Shown: in pieces, positions 4,211-49,950 of the stretch | Layout of the letters: the number at the start of each line of letters is the position of its first letter | Position numbering within the stretch: position 1 is the stretch's first letter | Assembly: GCA_903921785.1 (NCBI GenBank) | Contig: CAIXRH010000128.1 | Location: 1 to 52,107, forward strand | From: an uncultured Pseudomonadota bacterium | Lineage (GTDB): Bacteria; Myxococcota_A; UBA796; SXON01 | Length of the DNA: 52,107 nucleotides | Direction of reading: 5' to 3' | Notes under the pieces: model-generated | Told to the model about the DNA's origin: nothing | Database searches by the model: none | Seen by the model: only the letters and a program-made list of their open reading frames with translations | Position numbers and translations under genes: made by a program

Positions 4211-4464
4211 CGCGCTCGGACCCCCAGCCTGAAACCCCCGGTCTACAGGCTGCTCGGCGCAGAGCCGAGCTCACCGGGGGAAAAGGCTCGGCCAAAGCGA
4301 TCACTGCCCCGGCCGCGTTCGGACGAGAAGCCTAATGCCTCCGGTCTCCAGCCTGCTCGGCGCCAAGCCGAGCTCGACCCCGAAAAACAACCGCGGCCGG
4401 AGCGATCACCGCCCCGGCCGCGTTCGGACCAGAAGCCTATAGCCTCCGGTCTAAAGCCTCTTAG
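4211..4464. repeat. tandem repeat of about 104 bp, 2.4 copies, with a conserved hairpin
   Basis: Copies begin at 4211, 4314 and 4419, each with CGCG(C/T)TCGGA, followed by an (A/C)AGCCT...GCCTCCGGTCT-like segment and a GCTCGGC/GCCGAGC stem. In copies 1 and 2 the 7-bp stem is perfect and the 5-nt loop differs (GCAGA and GCCAA), which is what selection for structure would give. Copy 3 is cut short and runs into the stop of the FG-GAP gene. The stretch 4103-4460 contains no gene I can support apart from these repeats. Confidence 0.75.
4418..4460. repeat. right inverted-repeat arm flanking the four-helix-bundle pseudogene
   Basis: This is the partner of 3679-3721 in inverted orientation and coincides with the third, truncated copy of the 104-bp tandem repeat. 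A further copy of its 30-bp inner part lies at 8996-9025. Confidence 0.75.
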
Positions 4465-6350
4465 AAACAGCCGTTCCCGTACCCCTCGTTGTCCGTCTCG
4501 TCACACTCGGTGACGCCGCTGGACGTCGAGCCGGAGCCGCCGTCCACCTTGATGGTGAGGCCGTAGAGATCGCCGGTGATGCCGGTGATCTCGATCGACT
4601 CCGAAGCCTCCATGGTGCCGGCGCGGATGCCCGCCGTCCAGGTGGTGCTGTAGAGCCAGGTGTCCACCCCGTCGACGTTGCCCCAGATCTCGACGTTCAC
4701 CGGGTCGGTGATGTCTTCGATGCCATCATTGCCGACGGACCACGCCACGGTGATGTTGCCGTGCGCGCACTCCTCGGTGCAGATGTCCTGGATGTCGGCG
4801 ATGAGGTTCTGCTTCGGGAAGACCGCCTCGATCGGCGGGCCGGCGCGGAAGCTGTTGTAGTTCGCTGGCGGTCCCCAGTTGATGTCCGGCGAGGCGGGGA
4901 TGCTCATGTCGGAGTTCACGTTGGTGATCGAGAACCCGCTCTCGTTCCAGTACTTGAAGCCGGCGACGAAGGCGTTGGCCTTGTCTTCCATCACGTACAC
5001 GCCGGAGCTGTAGGTGCCGAAGGCCATGTCGACGTGACCGTCGGCGTCGAGGTCGGCCACCACGGGCATCTGCCCGCAGTAGGACTGCGCGCCGGTGAGG
5101 GTGGAGAGCAGGTCGCCGGTGTCGCCCTTGAGGATGTGCAGGCCGTCGTTGGAGACGTGCAAGACCTCCCAGACGCCGTCGCCATCGAGATCGTAGGCGG
5201 ACACGCCGTCGAAGAAGGTGGTGCTGGTGCCGGACCACGTCCACACCTGGGTGCCGTTGGTCTCGATCATGGTGACGCCGGGGGCGACCGGGACCGCGAT
5301 CTCGGGCTCGCCGTCGCCATCGAAGTCCGCGACGGCCGGCGGCCCGGTGTAGCCGGAGGAGGCGAGCGACGTGGACCAGATCTGGCTGCCGTCGTGGTTG
5401 AACAAGGAGACCTTGCCCTGGGACGCGACGACGACCTCGGCTTCGGGGTCGGAGTCGAAGTTGCCGACCGCGGGGAACCCGTCGGAGCCGCCCGTCGTCA
5501 TCACGGTGCCGCCCGACTTGCTGTAGGCAGCGTTGCCGACGATGACCTCCTGGTCGCCGTCGAGATCGATGTCGGCCGCGATGGAGTTCGGCGCTTCACC
5601 GGAGATCGCCGAGCCGTACCCGTAGGAGCCGGTGGCGAGGGTGGAGCCGGTCTGGCCGTTGATGATGACGCGGCCGGTGTAGACCTCGGGCTTGCCGTCT
5701 TCATCGAGGTCGGCGATGCCGATGGCGCCGCAGTACTGCTTGGTGCCGGTGGAGCCCGGACCGCTCCAGTAGCTGGAGCCGTCCTCGCCGTGCACAGCGA
5801 GGCTGCCGTAGAGGCCGCCCACGACCACCTCGGGCTTGCCGTCGCCGTCGAGATCGCCGATGGCGGGCGTGCTCTGCTCGATGTTCGAGCTGCTCACCTT
5901 CCAGAGCTGGGTGCCGTCGGGCTCGTAGGCGATGATGAAGCCGGAGTACGGGGCGGCGACGAGGTTGGGGGTGTCGTTGTCGTCGACCACACCGTCGCCG
6001 TTGTCGTCGTCCAGCTGGCCGACGGCCACCGTGCCGAGCATCGTGCCGAGCGTGGTGTCCTTCCACTTGTAGGAGAGCGACCAGTCCGGCGTGGACTTCG
6101 GGGGAGACTCGCAGTCGGCGCGCTGCACGAGCGTCGTGGCGGCGTAGGTGGGCAGCACGTCGTCGCACGTGGGGTCGGAGACGATGAGGCCGCCGCTGTC
6201 GTCGTTGGTGTCATCGACCGACGTGTCGACATCCGGGGCTTCGAAGGCGGTGTCGGTGTCGAACCCCTGCCTCTCGGTGGTCTTGCCGGAGAGGTTGTTC
6301 TCCGTCACGCATGCGGCGAGGAGCAGGGTGAGGGGGACGATCAGGCGCAT
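4461..6350 (-). CDS. FG-GAP/VCBS-repeat lipoprotein
   Basis: A 629-residue putative surface protein. MRLIVPLTLLLAAC places the lipobox Cys at residue 14, followed by an Asp/Thr-rich spacer to about residue 60. From about residue 100 to 430 there are repeated blades with the Asp-rich calcium loops of FG-GAP/VCBS propellers: DLDGDGKPEVVVGG, DLDEDGKPEVYTG, DIDLDGDQEVIVG, DFDGDGEPEIAVP, DLDGDGVWEV and DLDADGHVDMAFG. The C-terminal about 190 residues look like a CARDB-type adhesion module (VAWSVGNDGIEDITDPVNVEIW). Upstream, TATGCT about 20 nt from the ATG and a GGAG at a normal distance indicate a conventional leadered transcript. Such propellers bind calcium and mediate surface contacts; the ligand is unknown. 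The stop codon abuts the intergenic repeat. Confidence 0.88.
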   Translation of the reverse strand: MRLIVPLTLLLAACVTENNLSGKTTERQGFDTDTAFEAPDVDTSVDDTNDDSGGLIVSDPTCDDVLPTYAATTLVQRADCESPPKSTPDWSLSYKWKDTTLGTMLGTVAVGQLDDDNGDGVVDDNDTPNLVAAPYSGFIIAYEPDGTQLWKVSSSNIEQSTPAIGDLDGDGKPEVVVGGLYGSLAVHGEDGSSYWSGPGSTGTKQYCGAIGIADLDEDGKPEVYTGRVIINGQTGSTLATGSYGYGSAISGEAPNSIAADIDLDGDQEVIVGNAAYSKSGGTVMTTGGSDGFPAVGNFDSDPEAEVVVASQGKVSLFNHDGSQIWSTSLASSGYTGPPAVADFDGDGEPEIAVPVAPGVTMIETNGTQVWTWSGTSTTFFDGVSAYDLDGDGVWEVLHVSNDGLHILKGDTGDLLSTLTGAQSYCGQMPVVADLDADGHVDMAFGTYSSGVYVMEDKANAFVAGFKYWNESGFSITNVNSDMSIPASPDINWGPPANYNSFRAGPPIEAVFPKQNLIADIQDICTEECAHGNITVAWSVGNDGIEDITDPVNVEIWGNVDGVDTWLYSTTWTAGIRAGTMEASESIEITGITGDLYGLTIKVDGGSGSTSSGVTECDETDNEGYGNGCF

Positions 6351-6468
6351 GGCGACTCCGCAGGGTGTGCAGCATAGGGCATGCCGCAGCGAAACTCAAT
6401 ACGCATCCCGCATCGAAGACGTGACAGTTTTGTTTGGCTGAATTCGCGAACGGCGCCGGGACCGCTGG

Positions 6469-6474
6469 TACACT
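6469..6474 (+). promoter_or_regulatory. -10 hexamer TACACT upstream of the gene at 6493
   Basis: TACACT lies 18 nt before the ATG, predicting a short leader of about 12 nt that contains CGAGG. The upstream stretch (about 6380-6450) is noticeably more AT-rich than its surroundings, as expected of a promoter region. Confidence 0.4.
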
Positions 6475-6492
6475 GCGGCGCGAGGCTCTCCG

Positions 6493-7104
6493 ATGCTGCT
6501 CATCCTCTTCTCCGTGGCGTGCTCCCCCGATGCCGACGGCTCCTCCTCCACGGACTCCGCTGGGAACAACAACTCCAACGGTGGCGCCGACACCGCGGAC
6601 ACCGGCTCCGGTACCGATACCGGTGACGACACCAGCAACGTGGACACCGACACCGACACCAACGGCGACACCGCGATCAACGACACCGACACCGGCGACG
6701 ACGACGCGGACATCACCGGCGTTTTCAGCGGCAGCCCGTTCACCATGAACTTCGCCGACGCGCCGAACCCCGACATCCGCTGCCAGGAGAGCGGCGACTA
6801 CTACTTCCAGCTGCAGGACGCGAGCGGCACCTGGCAGCTCACGGTGAACGTGGCGCAGCCGGTGGAAGGAGCGACCGTCTCCTACCCGAGCCTCGGCACC
6901 AACACCTTCGCCCTGGGCGTCGTGAACACCTGGGCGCTCGACACGACCTACCACGGCACCGTCTCCAGCGCGCGCGTCACGGTGGACGCGGTGAAGCCGA
7001 CCATCCGGGTGACCGGCAGCTTCGAGGTCACCTGGGTGGCGGACGGCAACGGAAACCCGGCGGCGAACGCCTCGGGCACGTTCGACATCGGCTGTCGGGA
7101 CTAG
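6493..7104 (+). CDS. Asp/Thr-spacer lipoprotein of unknown function
   Basis: A 203-residue putative lipoprotein. The signal MLLILFSVA precedes Cys10 and has no basic residue. Reading back in frame there is no start codon before a TGA at 6439, so this short signal is not an annotation error. Residues 15-75 are a low-complexity Asp/Thr/Ser/Asn/Gly spacer (blocks such as DTDTDTNGDT). The remaining about 125 residues form a beta-rich domain with a cysteine near each end (RCQESGD and IGCRD) that could make a disulfide. No family is recognised. It is convergent with pgsA. Confidence 0.82.
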   Translation: MLLILFSVACSPDADGSSSTDSAGNNNSNGGADTADTGSGTDTGDDTSNVDTDTDTNGDTAINDTDTGDDDADITGVFSGSPFTMNFADAPNPDIRCQESGDYYFQLQDASGTWQLTVNVAQPVEGATVSYPSLGTNTFALGVVNTWALDTTYHGTVSSARVTVDAVKPTIRVTGSFEVTWVADGNGNPAANASGTFDIGCRD

Positions 7105-16331: not shown

Positions 16332-17918
16332 TCAGTACAGCGCCCACACCTTCCGCTCGTCATCTTCGGCGAGCAAGGTTGCGTGGTCCTTGAGCGCCCG
16401 CACCGAGGTCCGGAACGTGGCCTCGATCGCGACGTGGGGGTGGACCACGACGTACCGCACCCCGAGGCCCGTCGCGCGGGTGACGGCGTCCTCCCAGGGG
16501 AGCTCGTTGCGGGCGACCTTGCGGAGGTCGGCGAGCACGCGGAGGCCGGCGGCGTTCATCCCGCTGTTGAGCGAGGCCGTGAGCGGGTGGCCGTGAACGG
16601 ACTGCTCAAAGAGCCGGGTTCGGGCGTACCCGGCCGGCAGGCTCACCACCGCGCCGTCGGGGGCGTCTCGCAGCGTGACCAGTGGCGCCGGAGCGGAGGC
16701 GTCCGACACCTCCGGCAGGTGCCGCGCTGGCGAGATCAGCAGCGACTCCGCGACGATGAACGCCCCGAGCCAGCCCGGCGCGCGGTCCGCGAGGAGCCCG
16801 AGGGCGAGAGGGGCGACGGTGGCGATGCGGTAGAGCAGGGAGAGCCCGTCGAACCCGGGGAGGCGCTCCAGCGCTGCGTAGGGAAGCGGCAGCGCGTGCA
16901 TGTGCCAGGGGACGGGGCCCCCGTTGATCACCAGGACCGGGCCCATCGCCAGCACCAGGCTCGCGACGGTGGTGAGCCAGAGCGCGCGGCTCCGACCCTT
17001 CCACGCCGCGAGGCCGAGCAGCACGAAGCCGAGGTACGCGGTGTGCACCAGGTCGCTGGCGTTCTGCTCGAGGTGGCTGAAGTCCGGCGCGCGGAAGTCC
17101 CCCGGCATCACGAAGACGCGGGGGTCTGCGGCGCCGACGGTGCGGCGGAGGCGGGCAAGGGTCTCGGCCGACTTGATGTCCACCAGCCCGTCCGCGGCGT
17201 GGCTCGCCAGGTTGTAGGCGTGCGCGAGGGGGAGGAGGAGCAGGGTGGCGAGCACCAGCGCCGGCCACAGCCGCCAGCCGCCCTTCTGGAACAGCGCCAG
17301 CGAACCGACCAGGAGAAACGCCCCGACCCCGGCGTACCAGCCGCCGCCCACCGCGGCCAGGGCGAGCCCGAGCCCCGCGAGTGGCACCCGCAGCCACGAC
17401 CGCCCCTCCGGCTCGGTCGCCCGGGCCGCCAGCAACCCGGCCAGCGGCAACCATGCGAGCGCGACCGCCTCCGAGGAGCCGTTCTGCAGGTGCGACAGGC
17501 AGATCGGCGCCCACACGTAGGCGAGCCCGGCGATCCAGCCGCGGCCGCCGAGGCGCCTCCCCAACGCGTCCGCGAAGAGCCCGCCGAGCGTCACGTGCAC
17601 CAGCACGGTCAAGGCGTAGGCGAGCGTCGCTCCCCACGCGAGGGTGATCGGCGCGGCCAACGCCGCGTTGAGTGGATCCGCCACCAGGAGGGTCCCGCCG
17701 CTGGGGTAGTCGAGCAGGGTGGTGTGGGTCGGGAAGCGCCCCTCGGCGAGCCCGTGCGCCACGAACCAGTAGGACCAGAGGGCGTTGTAGACGTCCGTCC
17801 GCACCCCACCGACGGTGGTGAGGGTCGGGTGGAGGACCAGCGGCCACGTCGCCGCGACCGCCGAGCCGCCGTACACCGCGGCGCGCAGCGCCCAGCGGGC
17901 GGGCCGGCGCCGGCTCAC
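16332..17918 (-). CDS. multi-spanning membrane protein, GT-C-glycosyltransferase-like
   Basis: A 528-residue protein with a basic N-terminus and about ten to twelve hydrophobic helices over residues 10-390, then a soluble tail of about 130 residues. The early loop VRTDVYNALWSYWFVAHGLAEGRFP contains the acidic residue context found in the first luminal loop of GT-C fold glycosyltransferases (mannosyltransferase/arabinosyltransferase-like), which use polyprenyl-phosphate sugars. It also resembles uncharacterised membrane proteins of this type in other bacteria. The ATG overlaps the TGA of the TldE-like gene (ATGA), so it is the last gene of that operon. Its specific reaction cannot be told. Confidence 0.75.
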   Translation of the reverse strand: MSRRRPARWALRAAVYGGSAVAATWPLVLHPTLTTVGGVRTDVYNALWSYWFVAHGLAEGRFPTHTTLLDYPSGGTLLVADPLNAALAAPITLAWGATLAYALTVLVHVTLGGLFADALGRRLGGRGWIAGLAYVWAPICLSHLQNGSSEAVALAWLPLAGLLAARATEPEGRSWLRVPLAGLGLALAAVGGGWYAGVGAFLLVGSLALFQKGGWRLWPALVLATLLLLPLAHAYNLASHAADGLVDIKSAETLARLRRTVGAADPRVFVMPGDFRAPDFSHLEQNASDLVHTAYLGFVLLGLAAWKGRSRALWLTTVASLVLAMGPVLVINGGPVPWHMHALPLPYAALERLPGFDGLSLLYRIATVAPLALGLLADRAPGWLGAFIVAESLLISPARHLPEVSDASAPAPLVTLRDAPDGAVVSLPAGYARTRLFEQSVHGHPLTASLNSGMNAAGLRVLADLRKVARNELPWEDAVTRATGLGVRYVVVHPHVAIEATFRTSVRALKDHATLLAEDDERKVWALY

Positions 17919-19612
17919 TTCCGCTCGATGGCCAGGACGCGGGGTTCGCCGCCCACCGCCACGTCGAGCTCCATCTCGCTGACCAGCACCGAGGGCACGT
18001 CCCAGGTGACGGGCACGCCGCCGGTGGCGCCGATCATGTAGCGCTGCGGGCCCGGAGGGCCGTCGAGCATGTCGATCGGGCCGGCGCCTGCAGACGCCCC
18101 GACGATGTCGCGCAGCGCCCGCCGATCCACGCCCACGAAGCGGAGGTTCCGCACCGGATCGCAGGTTCCGTTCGCGTGGAGCAGGCAGGCTTCGTACGGC
18201 GCGGTGAGCCCCGCGAGCGGGCCCTCCCCGGAGAACGCCACGTCGAGGTGGTCGACCATCGCGGGCGGCATCAGCCGCTGGATCACCAGCACCCCCTCCT
18301 GCCCGACCTCCTTGGCGAGGCGGATCGCGTCCGCGCGCAGCTTCTTCTCGGCGAGCAGCTTCGGCGGCTTCACGTGGACGAACCCGGGGAGGGCCCCGCG
18401 GCGGTCGTTGCCGAGCCCGCGCCCGTGGCCGGTGGACTCGGTGCGGTCCTTGCCGGGAATCCTCGACATCAAGACGTCCTTGAGGACGCCGTCGAAGATC
18501 AGGTCGACCTTGTGGGGGACGACGCCTTCGTGGTCGATCGCGTACTCGCCCGCGGCGCCGGTGTGGCTGGTCGGGTCGTCCCAGGCGGTCCAGCCTTCGG
18601 GGAGCAGGCGGCGACCGAGGCGGGCGAGGGGCACGGCGCCGCCGCCGAAGTCGTCGCCGGAGTCGTCCTCTTCCATCGGCCGGGTGCCGGCGAGCTCGGG
18701 GGCGAGGAGCTGGCTGAAGAGCTCGGCCGCAGCCGGGCCTTCGAAGAGCACGGGGCCGAGCCAGGGCTTGGGCGCTGGCGCGGCGGCGGTAGCGAGCAGG
18801 CGCGTGGCCATGTCGTGCGCCGCGGCTTCGAGCGCGGCGGCGTCAGGGAGCGAGCTCGCGTCGCGGCCCACCCACCACCGAGCGTCGCGAACGGAGGAGC
18901 CATCGGCGCGGCGGACGTTGGCTTCGACGCGGATGACCACGTTGCCGGTGGGTTGCCACGCGGCGGTGCCGGTGGTGTCGAGGAGCAGGCGCCAGCCGTG
19001 CCAGTCCCGGACCTCCACCTGCGCGGACTCCACCCCGGGGATGGACGCCGCAGCGCTCAGCGACCGCGCCAGCGCGTCCACCTCCTCGTTGCTCCAGGCG
19101 TTCCCGGGATGGGCGCCCGGGGCGCGCACGGTCGGGGGTACCGGCTGGTAGTCGGGCGGCGGCGGCTCCTTGAGGCCCTTGCGCGCCGCGAGCTTGTGCG
19201 AGAGGGTCTCCACCGCGTGTTTGTACGCAGTGTCGGTGGCGAGCCAGGCTTCGCGGCGGATGGCCAGCTCGTTGTCCTCGACCGGCAGTCGACGCGACTC
19301 CACGCCGTCCGGCTCGCCGAAGCCGCTGAAGTTGGACGAGTCGACCGTGTAGTCGCCCACCCGCACCTCGGTGCGGACGTTGCGGTACCGTTCGTCCGTG
19401 GAGCGCACGAGCGTGCCATCCTCGGCGAGCGAATCGCGCATCGCGCCGTCGAGCACGTCGTAGAGCACGAGGTAGGGCGGGGCGCCGTCGGGGAGCTTCA
19501 GGCCGCGGGCGCGGTCGAGCTCGGCGCTCAGCGCGGACTGGAGCACGGTCGACGGGGCCGGGATGGTCCCGGTGGGCGCGGCGAGCGCGGCCGCGAAGAG
19601 CAGCGGGCTCAT
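17915..19612 (-). CDS. exported TldE/PmbA-like protein lacking the zinc motif
   Basis: A 565-residue protein related to the TldD/TldE (PmbA) family. A short signal MSPLLFAAALA precedes APTG. At the position where TldD has its HExxxH zinc site (here in the phrase GPVLFEGPAAAELFSQLLAPEL, residues 286-307) there is no His or Glu pair, and the C-terminal segment aligning with the TldD zinc Cys reads ATGGVPVTW without Cys. That is the known situation in TldE, the non-catalytic partner in the TldD-TldE heterodimer that degrades unfolded or leader peptides. The ATG overlaps the TldD-like stop codon by four bases, which fits production of the two subunits in equal amounts. Unusually for the family, both subunits carry export signals. 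Confidence 0.82.
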   Translation of the reverse strand: MSPLLFAAALAAPTGTIPAPSTVLQSALSAELDRARGLKLPDGAPPYLVLYDVLDGAMRDSLAEDGTLVRSTDERYRNVRTEVRVGDYTVDSSNFSGFGEPDGVESRRLPVEDNELAIRREAWLATDTAYKHAVETLSHKLAARKGLKEPPPPDYQPVPPTVRAPGAHPGNAWSNEEVDALARSLSAAASIPGVESAQVEVRDWHGWRLLLDTTGTAAWQPTGNVVIRVEANVRRADGSSVRDARWWVGRDASSLPDAAALEAAAHDMATRLLATAAAPAPKPWLGPVLFEGPAAAELFSQLLAPELAGTRPMEEDDSGDDFGGGAVPLARLGRRLLPEGWTAWDDPTSHTGAAGEYAIDHEGVVPHKVDLIFDGVLKDVLMSRIPGKDRTESTGHGRGLGNDRRGALPGFVHVKPPKLLAEKKLRADAIRLAKEVGQEGVLVIQRLMPPAMVDHLDVAFSGEGPLAGLTAPYEACLLHANGTCDPVRNLRFVGVDRRALRDIVGASAGAGPIDMLDGPPGPQRYMIGATGGVPVTWDVPSVLVSEMELDVAVGGEPRVLAIERK

Positions 19613-21309
19613 CGGGCACCCCCGGGGACACCGAGCAGCGGCGGTCGATCGTTGCCCTTCTCTCGGCGTTGTACCTCTACGTCTTTCACCAGGAGGCTCG
19701 GTGCGCTCGCGCTCACCGGCACCCAGCCGCTCTCCGCGCCGCACACGCCGTTGAACACTTCGGTCTCCCCGCCGGCGGCGAGGATGTTCGCGAAGGTGGT
19801 CAGCGGGGTGCCGATGAGGTCCACCCCGCGCACGAGCTCGTCGGGCCGGCCGTCGGCGTACACCCGCCACACGGTCACGGGCTGCACGGCGAAGCTGTTG
19901 GGCGTGCTCCGCCCGGTGAAGGTGAAGCCGCCGGAGATGTCATCGAAGATGAGCCCCCAGGGTTTGCCCTGCTTCTTCACCTCGTCCACCAGGCGCTTGC
20001 GCAGCTCGGGGAAGGGGATCACCCCGTCGGCCTGCACCATCAGGTTGCCCTGCCGGGCGACGACGGCGTTGCCGGGCTGGCGGCGGCCGTGCCCGTTGCT
20101 GCGCCCGAAGCCGGCGACGGGCTCGCGCGACATCAGGAAGTTCTTCAGGACGCCGTGCTCGACGAGGGGGACGCGCTCGGCGGCCACGCCCTCGTCGTCC
20201 ACCGCGTAGTGTCCGTTGAGGTCGACGTTGCCGAGGCGGGCGAGGGTGGGGTCGTCGACCACGCTCAGGAACGCCGGGAGGATGGACTGCCCGACCCGGT
20301 TGGTGAACGTCTGGCCTTCATCCTCATCCTTCTGTCGGTGTCCCTCGATGCGGTGGCCGAAGATCTCGTGGAAGAAGACGCCGGCGGCGCGGCCCCGGAG
20401 GATCGCGGGGCCGGTCCACGGGTCGATGACCGGCGCGTGGCGCAGCGCCACCACCCGCTCGGCCACCCCGCGCGTCATCGCCTCGATCGCCGCGCGGTCA
20501 GGGAGGTGGTCCGCTGAGGCGACGTCCACGTAGTCGTAGACCGACAGGTTCATCCCGTCGTCCGCCACGGTCTGCGCCCAGGTGGCCACGCGGAGGTGGC
20601 GCCATGCGTCCCGAACGGCGGTGCCCTCGTTGGTGGCGATCCACCGGTCGTCTTCGGTCACGACCAGCTGCACGGCGCTGTCGTAGACCTCGGGGTAGTG
20701 CAGGTAGATGGAAGAGACTTCGCGGGTGAGCGCCTGCCAGGCCGGGGTGTCCACCACGATGGCGGGCGCGGGGGCGTCCAGGGTCACGGCCGCGGCGGCC
20801 GAGAAGTCGGCCGAGGTGTCGGTGCGCGCGACCTTCACCTGCTCGTTGCTACGCACCTTCACCAGACGGGCACGCCCGGCGCGGAACACGTCGTCGGTGG
20901 CGCGGAGGAGCTGGCGACGGAGGGGGTCGAGCGGGCCGTCGAAGCCGACGTACCATTGCGGGCGGGGCGTCTCGGAGAAGAAGCCTTGGTCGCGGAGCTT
21001 GTGGGTGCTGTCGAGCTGCATCGAGCCGACGCGCACATCTACGTCCAGCGAGCGGAGATGCTCGGGAACCGTGCCCGCTTCCGCGCCGTGGGAGCCCTGG
21101 ATCGTGAGCTCCCGATGGTCCACCAGCTCGTATTCTACGAAGTAGGCCGGGTCCGGCTCCTTCGCGAGCTGCTCGGACACCTCGCCGAGGGCCCCCTTGA
21201 GGACCGCCAGCACATCTTCCGACGGAGTGACCGCCGCGCTGGCGGCCGGCGCGGCGGACAGGACGAACAACGAGCCGGCCACGAGGCCCCACCACGAGCG
21301 GGTCTGCAT
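19609..21309 (-). CDS. exported TldD-like zinc metallopeptidase
   Basis: A 566-residue protein of the TldD metallopeptidase family. The zinc site is complete: FFHEIFGHRIEGH gives His314, Glu315 and His319, and the third ligand Cys523 lies in GVCGAESGWVPVSASAP, matching the TldD CGKDGQSVPVG-type segment. Other family phrases include GHGRRQPGNAVVARQGNL and GFTFTGRSTPNSFAVQP. The N-terminus MQTRSWWGLVAGSLFVLSAAPAASA is a normal signal peptide, so the enzyme is predicted to act outside the cytoplasm; classical TldD is cytoplasmic and processes peptide antibiotics such as microcin B17. The start is supported by TACGCG six bases upstream. It leads the TldD, TldE, GT-C operon. Confidence 0.88.
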   Translation of the reverse strand: MQTRSWWGLVAGSLFVLSAAPAASAAVTPSEDVLAVLKGALGEVSEQLAKEPDPAYFVEYELVDHRELTIQGSHGAEAGTVPEHLRSLDVDVRVGSMQLDSTHKLRDQGFFSETPRPQWYVGFDGPLDPLRRQLLRATDDVFRAGRARLVKVRSNEQVKVARTDTSADFSAAAAVTLDAPAPAIVVDTPAWQALTREVSSIYLHYPEVYDSAVQLVVTEDDRWIATNEGTAVRDAWRHLRVATWAQTVADDGMNLSVYDYVDVASADHLPDRAAIEAMTRGVAERVVALRHAPVIDPWTGPAILRGRAAGVFFHEIFGHRIEGHRQKDEDEGQTFTNRVGQSILPAFLSVVDDPTLARLGNVDLNGHYAVDDEGVAAERVPLVEHGVLKNFLMSREPVAGFGRSNGHGRRQPGNAVVARQGNLMVQADGVIPFPELRKRLVDEVKKQGKPWGLIFDDISGGFTFTGRSTPNSFAVQPVTVWRVYADGRPDELVRGVDLIGTPLTTFANILAAGGETEVFNGVCGAESGWVPVSASAPSLLVKDVEVQRREKGNDRPPLLGVPGGAR

Positions 21310-24944: not shown

Positions 24945-26276
24945 ATGCGGATCGTAGGTGCAGTCATGTTCGTCGTGCTCGTCTGCCTGTGGCCGATGAC
25001 GGCCATGGCCCAGGATGAAGGCGGGCCTGTCGCGGAGGCGTCGGCGGTCACCGAGGCGGTACCCGTGGCGATGGACGGAACGCCGATCACACCGGCCGTG
25101 ATCGCGCCGGTTGCGGCTGCGGCGCCGCGCGCCTCGGTCATGGTCCTCGACGCGTGGTCCGAGGCGGTCACCTTCACCGAATCCGACCGCAAGGAGTGTC
25201 GCGCCAAACACCACGGCGACGGGCTGTGCCCCGACCAGGCGGCGCGCCTCGGCGACATGCTCACCCTCGATGTCCAGGGCCTCGCGCAGGCGATCGACGA
25301 CGCCGGGGGGGAGTGTGAGTCCCTCGTCCTGTTCCTCGCGGGGCTCCCGATGCGGGGAATCCACCCCTCCCGGTGTGATCCGGACAACGGACACGTTGGC
25401 TTCCTCCTCGCGCGAACGGAAGAGGGAAACGACGCGTGGAAGGAGCTCCTCGGCCACCCCACCGCGTTCCGCAAGGTGGTCCAGGCGACCATTGGCTCGT
25501 CCGACACCCGTTCCTACCCGCGGAAGAACGGATCCGTGCCGCTGATGCTCACCCAGATCCCCACCAGGCCGTTCGTGGCCTTCCTGATCATCGCCCTCGG
25601 CACCCTGGCCATCGTGGGCTTCCTCGGGCGCACCACCGCGCTGCTGCGCGACCCGAGCGGCTCCGCCGACCGTGAGGAGCGGCTCCGCCCCTACAGCCTC
25701 TCCCGGGTGCAGCAGGCGTTCTGGTTCGTGCTCTCGGTGCTCGCCTACCTCTTCGTATGGCTGATGACCGGTGAGCTCGACAGCCTTTCGACCTCGGTCC
25801 TCGCGCTCATCTCCATCAGCAGCGGCACGGCCCTCGCGAGCGAGGCCCTGGGGAGCTCCCACACCACGCGCCTCATCAGCAAGGAGAAGAAGCTCCGGGA
25901 GCAAGCGCTGCGGCTCTACGCCTCCCGGGCCAGGCTCGACGGGGCCGACCACACCGACGACGAGCGGCGCACCGCCGACGACGCCGTGCGCCTCAATGAA
26001 GAGGCGCTCAGCGCGCTCCAGGCTGCCATTCGCAAGGGGGAGACCGAGGGCTTCTTCACCGACCTGGTGCGGGATCCCGCCGGGGTGAGCCTCCAGCGGG
26101 CGCAGATCGCGGTGTGGACGGTGGTCCTCGGGGTGATCTTCGTCTACGAGGTCTATGCGCGGCTGACCATGCCCGAGTTCAGCGCGACCTTGTTGAGCCT
26201 CATGGGCATCAGCTCGGGCACCTACCTCGCCGGCAAGACCGTGAGCGGGGCAGGAACCGAGTCGGCGGCGGGCTGA
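24945..26276 (+). CDS. membrane protein with duplicated transmembrane hairpin, partner of the ion-channel gene
   Basis: A 443-residue protein. A signal peptide (MRIVGAVMFVVLVCLWPMTAMA) is followed by an extracytoplasmic domain (about 65-205) with four to five cysteines (KECRAKHHGDGLC, GECES, SRCDPDNGH) that may form disulfides. Then comes one helix (208-227) and a pair of related two-helix hairpins: residues 251-300 (SLSRVQQAFW...ISISSGTALASE) and 382-431 (SLQRAQIAVW...MGISSGTYLAGK). Both begin with an RxQxAxW motif and end with ISSGTxLA. A charged helical segment (about 310-375) separates them. The first hairpin resembles a family of uncharacterised bacterial membrane proteins with the AFW...TGELD...SVLAL pattern. 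It ends three bases before the channel gene and should be cotranscribed with it. Confidence 0.8.
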   Translation: MRIVGAVMFVVLVCLWPMTAMAQDEGGPVAEASAVTEAVPVAMDGTPITPAVIAPVAAAAPRASVMVLDAWSEAVTFTESDRKECRAKHHGDGLCPDQAARLGDMLTLDVQGLAQAIDDAGGECESLVLFLAGLPMRGIHPSRCDPDNGHVGFLLARTEEGNDAWKELLGHPTAFRKVVQATIGSSDTRSYPRKNGSVPLMLTQIPTRPFVAFLIIALGTLAIVGFLGRTTALLRDPSGSADREERLRPYSLSRVQQAFWFVLSVLAYLFVWLMTGELDSLSTSVLALISISSGTALASEALGSSHTTRLISKEKKLREQALRLYASRARLDGADHTDDERRTADDAVRLNEEALSALQAAIRKGETEGFFTDLVRDPAGVSLQRAQIAVWTVVLGVIFVYEVYARLTMPEFSATLLSLMGISSGTYLAGKTVSGAGTESAAG

Positions 26277-26279
26277 GGC

Positions 26280-27347
26280 GTGGGTGCCCTCTTCTGGCTT
26301 CTCGCGGCGGTCGCGGCGGCGCCGGCGCTCGCCGGGCCGCCCACGCTGCCGGAACCGGGCGGCCTTGGCGACGCGGACTCGGGGGAGCCGGCCCCGGCCG
26401 TTCCGACCGCGGGCGCGGCGGCCGATCCGGCTGCGGGGCGCCCCCCTTCGTGTGTGGTCGGGGTGTACGTCATCAACCTCAACCACCTCTCCCCGGCGGA
26501 TCACAGCTTCGGCGCCGACTACTGGATCTGGTCGGACTGCGGGGCCAACTACACGCCGCTCACCGGCGTCAAGATGATCAACGGCCGAAAGCCCGACCGC
26601 GGGGACGAGATCGTCGGGCCGCTCGAGCGGGTGCCCGGCCGCTGGTGGGCCTACCGCAAGGTGAGCGCCAGCTTCGACCACGAGTGGGACATGGCGGCGT
26701 TCCCCTTCGACCACCACACCCTGGAGATGGTCTTCGAGTACACCGACGACGAGGTGCAGGCGTTCCGGCTCCTCCCCGACCTCCCGGGCACCCGGATCGA
26801 CCCCGAGGCCCACCTCGACGGCTGGTCGATCGGCCCCGCGTTGGTCCGGGGATGGACCTACACCTACCCTACGGTCTTCGGGGATCCGAAGCTCGCCGGC
26901 CGTAGCACCAGCGACTACTCCCGACTCACCGTGTCCGTGGCGGTCGATCGCACCGGCCTCGGCACCTTCGCCAAGCTCATCGCCGGCGTCGTCAGCGCGG
27001 TGCTGGTCGCTCAGCTCTCCTTCCGGCTGGACGCTCGGCAGACGTCGCTGATGAGCTCCCGGATGAGCATGGTCGTGGGTGCGCTGTTCGCGGTGGTGGT
27101 GAACATGCGCGCGGTGGAGTCGGTGCTCGGTCGGTCGGAGGACTTCACCCTCATCGACCGGGTGCACCTCGTCGCGCTCGCGCAGGTGGTGATCTGCGGG
27201 TCGCTCGCCATCCTCTCCCGCCGGATGGTCGAGGAGGGCCGGGAGGCGCTCGCGGCGAAGCTGGACCGCTGGGGGTTCGTCCTCGGCTTTGTGTGGTTCT
27301 TCGGGGCGGTTGGGCTGCTCATCGGGGTGCAGTCGCTGCTCGGCTAG
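26280..27347 (+). CDS. prokaryotic pentameric ligand-gated ion channel subunit
   Basis: A 355-residue protein with the layout of the Cys-loop receptor superfamily (GLIC/ELIC-like). A signal peptide (1-19) and Pro/Ala linker lead into a beta-sandwich ligand-binding domain with VVGVYVINLNHL and ADYWIWSDC, the diagnostic FPFD motif of the pre-M1 loop region at 141-144 (DMAAFPFDHHTLEMVFEY), and four hydrophobic segments: M1 (about 229-250), M2 (258-280), M3 (294-315, starting at the family phrase FTLIDRVHL) and M4 (331-353). There is no Cys-loop disulfide, as usual for bacterial members. It should form a homopentameric channel gated by an extracellular ligand or protons; the ligand and ion selectivity cannot be read. 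GTG start, three bases after the partner's stop codon. Confidence 0.8.
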   Translation: MGALFWLLAAVAAAPALAGPPTLPEPGGLGDADSGEPAPAVPTAGAAADPAAGRPPSCVVGVYVINLNHLSPADHSFGADYWIWSDCGANYTPLTGVKMINGRKPDRGDEIVGPLERVPGRWWAYRKVSASFDHEWDMAAFPFDHHTLEMVFEYTDDEVQAFRLLPDLPGTRIDPEAHLDGWSIGPALVRGWTYTYPTVFGDPKLAGRSTSDYSRLTVSVAVDRTGLGTFAKLIAGVVSAVLVAQLSFRLDARQTSLMSSRMSMVVGALFAVVVNMRAVESVLGRSEDFTLIDRVHLVALAQVVICGSLAILSRRMVEEGREALAAKLDRWGFVLGFVWFFGAVGLLIGVQSLLG

Positions 27348-49437: not shown

Positions 49438-49950
49438 ATGCGCCTGACCTTCCTCCTCCCCCTCACCGTGGCCTGCACCACCGCGCCTGGAACCGGCGGA
49501 ACCGGCGCCACCGACACGGCGGACACCGCGGCCGACACCGCCGACACGTCGGTGGACACCGCGGACACCGGCGGGAACGACACGGCGGACACCGGCGGGA
49601 CCGGACATTGCCCCACCGACGAGACCGCGATGTGCGGGATGCTCAAAGGCACGGTCCCCGGCGCCTTCTTCGCCGTGCGTCTGTACCCCTCGGGGGCGTC
49701 GCTGCCGGCGGCCGACATGATGCTGGACCCGACGGTCTTGGAGATCACCTTCCCGTTCGCCTACACCATGAAGGCCGACGCGTTTCATTCGGACACCCCC
49801 GCTGGGGTGTACGACGCGGTGCTGGTCATCGAGAGCAACGGCGACGGCAAGCTCGACAAGGACGTCGACACCACGCTCACCTCCGCTGCGAGCCCGGTGA
49901 CCATCACTGAGGGCGTCGGCCTCGACGGCGTGGACTTCGTCGTCCCGTAG
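49438..49950 (+). CDS. Asp/Thr-spacer lipoprotein of unknown function
   Basis: A 170-residue putative lipoprotein. MRLTFLLPLTVA precedes Cys13, followed by a spacer of DTADT repeats (about residues 24-57). The C-terminal 110 residues form a beta-rich domain with a cysteine pair (GHCPTDETAMCG) and the calcium-loop-like SNGDGKLDKDVDTTL; the order of strands recalls small Ig-like or carboxypeptidase-regulatory-like domains. Function not recognised. Confidence 0.82.
   Translation: MRLTFLLPLTVACTTAPGTGGTGATDTADTAADTADTSVDTADTGGNDTADTGGTGHCPTDETAMCGMLKGTVPGAFFAVRLYPSGASLPAADMMLDPTVLEITFPFAYTMKADAFHSDTPAGVYDAVLVIESNGDGKLDKDVDTTLTSAASPVTITEGVGLDGVDFVVP

Follow-up and report, generated by a model that had tools for sequence, protein, structure and literature searches.

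A divergent pentameric ligand-gated channel gene and the duplicated-hairpin membrane protein gene that adjoins it in an uncultured bacterium

The DNA analysed here, a stretch of 52,107 nucleotides referred to as the window, holds two adjoining genes. The second of these encodes what is, by sequence homology, a bacterial pentameric ligand-gated ion channel (pLGIC) of the Cys-loop/Pro-loop superfamily, and the first encodes a membrane protein that belongs to no named family. The two genes are not a conserved pair and a fixed two-component receptor is not supported; the locus probably consists of a channel gene that adds a divergent member to a known family and, next to it, a gene for an uncharacterised, independent membrane protein. 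In structural work, bacterial pLGICs stand in for the neurotransmitter receptors of animals, and little is known of what most of them do or bind in nature. Had the partner been conserved, it would have offered a direct handle on these roles and ligands, whereas an unconserved pair gives none. Of use all the same are a divergent subclade of channels, which has a cysteine pair of its own and spans the phylum and Streptomyces plasmids, and a widespread, unnamed family of membrane proteins worth naming and testing.

Layout of the two-gene unit

The sequence-only reading had the first gene, called here the partner gene, ending three bases before the second within one operon; the spacing is confirmed and the operon is probable (Table 1). 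The partner gene closes at 26276 and the channel gene opens at 26280 on the same strand, leaving a gap of 3 bp, and codon-usage scores are positive for both (159 for the partner gene and 138 for the channel gene). Since the genes to either side lie on the other strand, the two form an isolated unit, and it is from this co-oriented, closely spaced arrangement that we infer them to be probably co-transcribed. The spacing itself is ordinary and says little alone, because gaps of 10 bp or less, or overlaps, are found in 12 of the 26 same-strand neighbour pairs predicted within the window.

Table 1. Features of the partner and channel genes (positions are those of the window; residues are numbered within each protein)
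Feature	Position	Strand	Details	Basis
Gene 1, partner gene	24945..26276	+	ATG 24945, stop 26274-26276, 443 aa	
Partner protein, N-terminal parts	24945..26276	+	Signal peptide 1-25; low-complexity linker 26-76; exported alpha/beta domain ~99-205; TM1 207-230	
Partner protein, C-terminal parts	24945..26276	+	TM2-TM3 hairpin 252-305; cytoplasmic coiled coil 305-363 (predicted topology); TM4-TM5 hairpin 383-434	
Partner protein, first hairpin	25692..25859	+	Residues ~250-305, SLSRVQQAFWF...SISSGTALASE	Self-comparison, family alignment
Partner protein, second hairpin	26085..26249	+	Residues ~381-435, SLQRAQIAVWT...GISSGTYLAGK	Self-comparison, family alignment
Gene 2, pLGIC subunit (by homology)	26280..27347	+	GTG start 26280, stop ending 27347, 355 aa	
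Channel protein, parts	26280..27347	+	Signal peptide; extracytoplasmic beta-sandwich ligand-binding domain ~55-225; M1-M4 ~226-350	
Cys58 ... Cys87 pair	26451..26540	+	Ligand-binding domain	Alignment, tree
FPFD Pro-loop motif	26700..26711	+	Residues 141-144, in place of the animal Cys-loop	Alignment
M2 pore helix	27060..27125	+	RMSMVVGALFAVVVNMRAVESV, 0' to about 21'	ELIC profile alignment

The channel

The second gene had been assigned to the Cys-loop superfamily, and its FPFD motif, signal peptide and four helices, together with a profile match to solved channels, bear this out. Scanned alone against Pfam and NCBIfam, the channel protein gave nothing above cut-off. Of 58 related genomes, 15 yielded relatives; these were aligned, and the resulting 15-row profile aligns with solved ELIC and GLIC chains along almost all of their length (best E 1e-27, range to 1e-14). 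The homology revealed by this profile comparison covers both the ligand-binding and the transmembrane domains. A leave-one-out design checks that the window channel itself belongs, beyond its relatives alone: a profile of the other 14 rows finds it with an E of 1e-69, compared with 0.8 or worse for 51 shuffled or reversed controls, and with an E of 1e-39 when the closest relative, at 46% identity, is also left out of the profile. The NCBIfam model LGIC_1 matches all 15 members of the channel alignment and TIGR00860 matches 14 of them, the window protein itself being matched weakly. Within the FPFD motif, P142 and D144 are invariant across the 15 aligned relatives.

Hydropathy shows four C-terminal hydrophobic helices following the beta domain. 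A single-sequence AlphaFold2 model of the channel is poor (pLDDT 43) and consists of beta strands followed by helices at 225-251, 258-283, 291-318 and 322-354; the first six PDB fold matches to this low-confidence model are to GLIC and DeCLIC and are weak, with an E of 0.005 at best. A search of the window's own genome with Pfam PF02931 returned no match, its controls being silent too, and no channel relatives were found on viral contigs.

Like ELIC, GLIC and DeCLIC (PF02931/PF02932, LGIC_1, TIGR00860), the window channel has a signal peptide, a beta-sandwich and four C-terminal helices, and it shares with them the Pro-loop FPxD, the absence of the Cys-loop cysteine pair and a short M3-M4 loop. 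It differs from them in having the Cys58-Cys87 pair and a longer M1-M2 link, and in the absence of an acidic residue at -1'/-2'. To most relatives within the phylum it is ~20-28% identical. A tree of 35 channels places it beside the 46% relative (support 100/98), and these are next joined by two Streptomyces plasmid proteins (98/95). Cys58, Cys87 and the longer M1-M2 link are common to the four-member subclade and, as a set, are absent from the other rows. When numbered from the ELIC profile alignment, M2 would have Ser at 2', Phe at 9' and Arg at 16'; since it would carry an acidic residue at neither -1' nor -2', cation selectivity cannot be assumed.

Other members of the channel family were encountered in varied settings. 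pLGIC genes on Streptomyces and Azospirillum plasmids (L045:4752-5888, L046:4857-5897, L047:4830-5870) are annotated as hypothetical or are unannotated. Channel-family frames of ~820-890 residues (L036:161-2674 on G015:C202, L086 and L088) probably continue beyond M4 into a long additional C-terminal part. In two congeners (G008 and G010), another channel of the family lies directly 5' of a second gene (L024:2616-4363, L025:1122-2869), and that pair is kept in both; by its motif, the gene that follows the channel there would be FHA-domain-like.

The duplicated-hairpin protein

The earlier description of the first gene product, as a protein with several membrane helices and a duplicated hairpin, agrees with what was found. 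There are five helices, and the two hairpins align with each other with a score of 75 versus 25 +/- 4.8 for shuffles (Z 10.4); they are a true internal duplication. An AlphaFold2 model built from 16 sequences has a pLDDT of 72, with ~80-90 in the exported domain. In the predicted topology the exported domain is outside and the coiled coil inside, in keeping with both the signal peptide and the number of helices. The exported domain had also been called Cys-rich. Its export is supported by the signal peptide, but the epithet says too much: the exported part has four cysteines (85, 95, 124 and 144), of which only 124 and 144 are common to the paralogue in the same genome, and no exported-part cysteine is common to the wider family.

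Pfam and NCBIfam contain no family that accounts for the partner or its relatives, and neither it nor they gave a PBP or Cache match in Pfam. A fold search of the partner model against the PDB gave no match at E <= 0.001, and the PADLOC defence families gave nothing of weight. BAR-domain coiled coils were the top PDB hits, at an E of 0.1 only, and were discounted as the fold. A contig scan for relatives with a two-row alignment found none, its patterns being too narrow, and a four-row alignment then yielded 20 loci. Relatives with the same layout occur in Acidobacteriota, Lysobacter, Verrucomicrobiota, Bacteroidota and Alphaproteobacteria. The window partner aligns with these along its full length at 26-37% identity (44-45% for the paralogue); the parts come in the same sequence and the hairpin motifs are conserved. 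It departs from them at the start of the first hairpin, which is usually SLGRTQMAFW and in the window copy is SLSRVQQAFW, and in having a channel gene beside it. The family is uncharacterised, undescribed and patchily distributed.

Three genes of this family adjoin genes for the following proteins: a muramidase in Lysobacter, a phage-lysozyme-like protein in Blastocatellia and a peptidoglycan-binding glycosidase in Spartobacteria (L057:4144-4725, L058:6054-6662, L066:5777-6682). These neighbours hint at a cell-envelope role for the family. The solo paralogue in the window's own genome, on contig 221, lies downstream of genes resembling lsp and lgt.

Distribution of the two families and the relation between their products

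The sequence-only reading proposed the membrane protein as a fixed partner of the channel, and a lack of adjacency in relatives was named beforehand as one observation that would count against this. Such a lack is what was found, and in the several hundred genomes covered the two families are distributed independently, with the proviso that divergent partners may escape these searches. Across the phylum, the channel family is present in 43 of 284 genomes and the partner family, by confident matches, in three (the window's own, G013 and G279), and the two genes are adjacent in the window and in none of the 283 other genomes. Two of the three genomes with a confident partner also have a channel, where 0.45 would be expected, and in the second of these the genes are on different contigs. 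No channel lies within up to 5 kb to either side of any of the 20 named partner loci; 17 of the 19 genomes that contain these loci lack a channel altogether, and the remaining two have theirs on another contig. A candidate pair in Amaricoccus was rejected, since the genome has both families but on different contigs. Among 147 genomes of Blastocatellia, a class in which the partner family is common, there are 18 with a strong partner match and four with a channel; in the single genome with both (0.5 expected by chance) the channel match is weak and on another contig, and adjacency is again nil. The window's own genome has a second partner copy, 45% identical, with no channel beside it (L020:4626-5906, G000:C221). 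The nearest channel relative, at 46%, comes from a genome with no partner-family match (G020), where the channel lies at a contig end and the 265 bp readable upstream hold no partner.

Orthologues of the two flanking genes occur in almost every congener, mostly at 71-78% and 62-71% identity; there the two are on separate contigs or distant from each other, have other neighbours in the regions read, and lack the pair. The pair thus sits where this lineage has been rearranged; a less likely alternative is an error of assembly. The explanation that we favour, and hold to be likely, is that a stand-alone pLGIC and an independent membrane protein share a unit through such a rearrangement. The channel subunit would be exported and, to judge from the family, five copies would assemble in the cytoplasmic membrane, where a periplasmic small molecule may bind the beta-sandwich and open the M2-lined pore. 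The partner would be an independent inner-membrane protein whose beta-domain faces the periplasm and whose two copies of the hairpin are linked through a cytoplasmic coiled coil. The rearrangement would have put both genes in one transcription unit without making the proteins obligate partners. Since close channel relatives live without the partner, the channel would most likely work alone, as those relatives must.

An isolated two-gene unit with a 3-bp gap, both of whose products are exported to the same membrane, could also be expected of a lineage-specific accessory subunit or ligand presenter, the periplasmic beta-domain docking on the channel's ligand-binding domain and the hairpins packing on M4, thereby modulating gating. 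Precedents exist. Periplasmic binding domains (PBP-II, Cache, PBP-I, MCP-N) have been described for bacterial pLGICs, either fused to the channel or encoded in its operon, the PBP-II and Cache genes lying in operons beside the channel genes (Tasneem et al., PMC549065), and in DeCLIC an N-terminal modulatory domain is fused to the channel (PMC9897478). The former study is the relevant precedent for bacterial pLGIC operons, and the operonic cases in it correct the earlier view of such channels as stand-alone genes. The likeness to these cases is that a pLGIC gene adjoins a gene for an exported domain; the window partner, however, is anchored by five helices, falls into none of these domain families in the searches run, and its pairing with the channel is unconserved. 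The pair is conserved nowhere examined, the partner has a solo paralogue in its own genome and close channel relatives are found in genomes without the partner, all of which make an accessory subunit unlikely. There is a similarly small chance that the hairpin protein has been recruited in this lineage to form a two-gene bacterial receptor, with the periplasmic domain presenting or sensing ligand.

The two proteins need not touch in order to be useful together, and might serve a shared response, such as one to ionic stress or to stress on the cell envelope, with the operon being advantageous in this lineage. Their place in one transcription unit is consistent with this, as is the proximity of some partner-family genes in other phyla to muramidase, lysozyme or peptidoglycan-binding genes. 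However, such a context is seen at close range in only three of ~20 loci, no such envelope gene lies beside the window pair, and the pair is unconserved, so that a shared response also seems improbable. An assembly artefact joining two non-neighbouring places in the genome would be compatible with the 362 contigs of the assembly and with the separation of the flanking genes in congeners, but is very improbable, given that the junction is inside a 52-kb contig, that both reading frames are intact, that coding composition at the junction is typical of the window and that the flanks vary among congeners too.

Elsewhere in the window, 4461-7104 and 49438-49950 encode several proteins that are predicted to be exported and have long low-complexity linkers rich in Asp and Thr (DTADTGDTAD), which recur in relatives of this genome. 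At 17915-21309 are two adjoining minus-strand genes of ~565 residues; the product of the one at 19609-21309 shows the motif HEIFGH, which we take to resemble that of TldD/PmbA-type metalloproteases.
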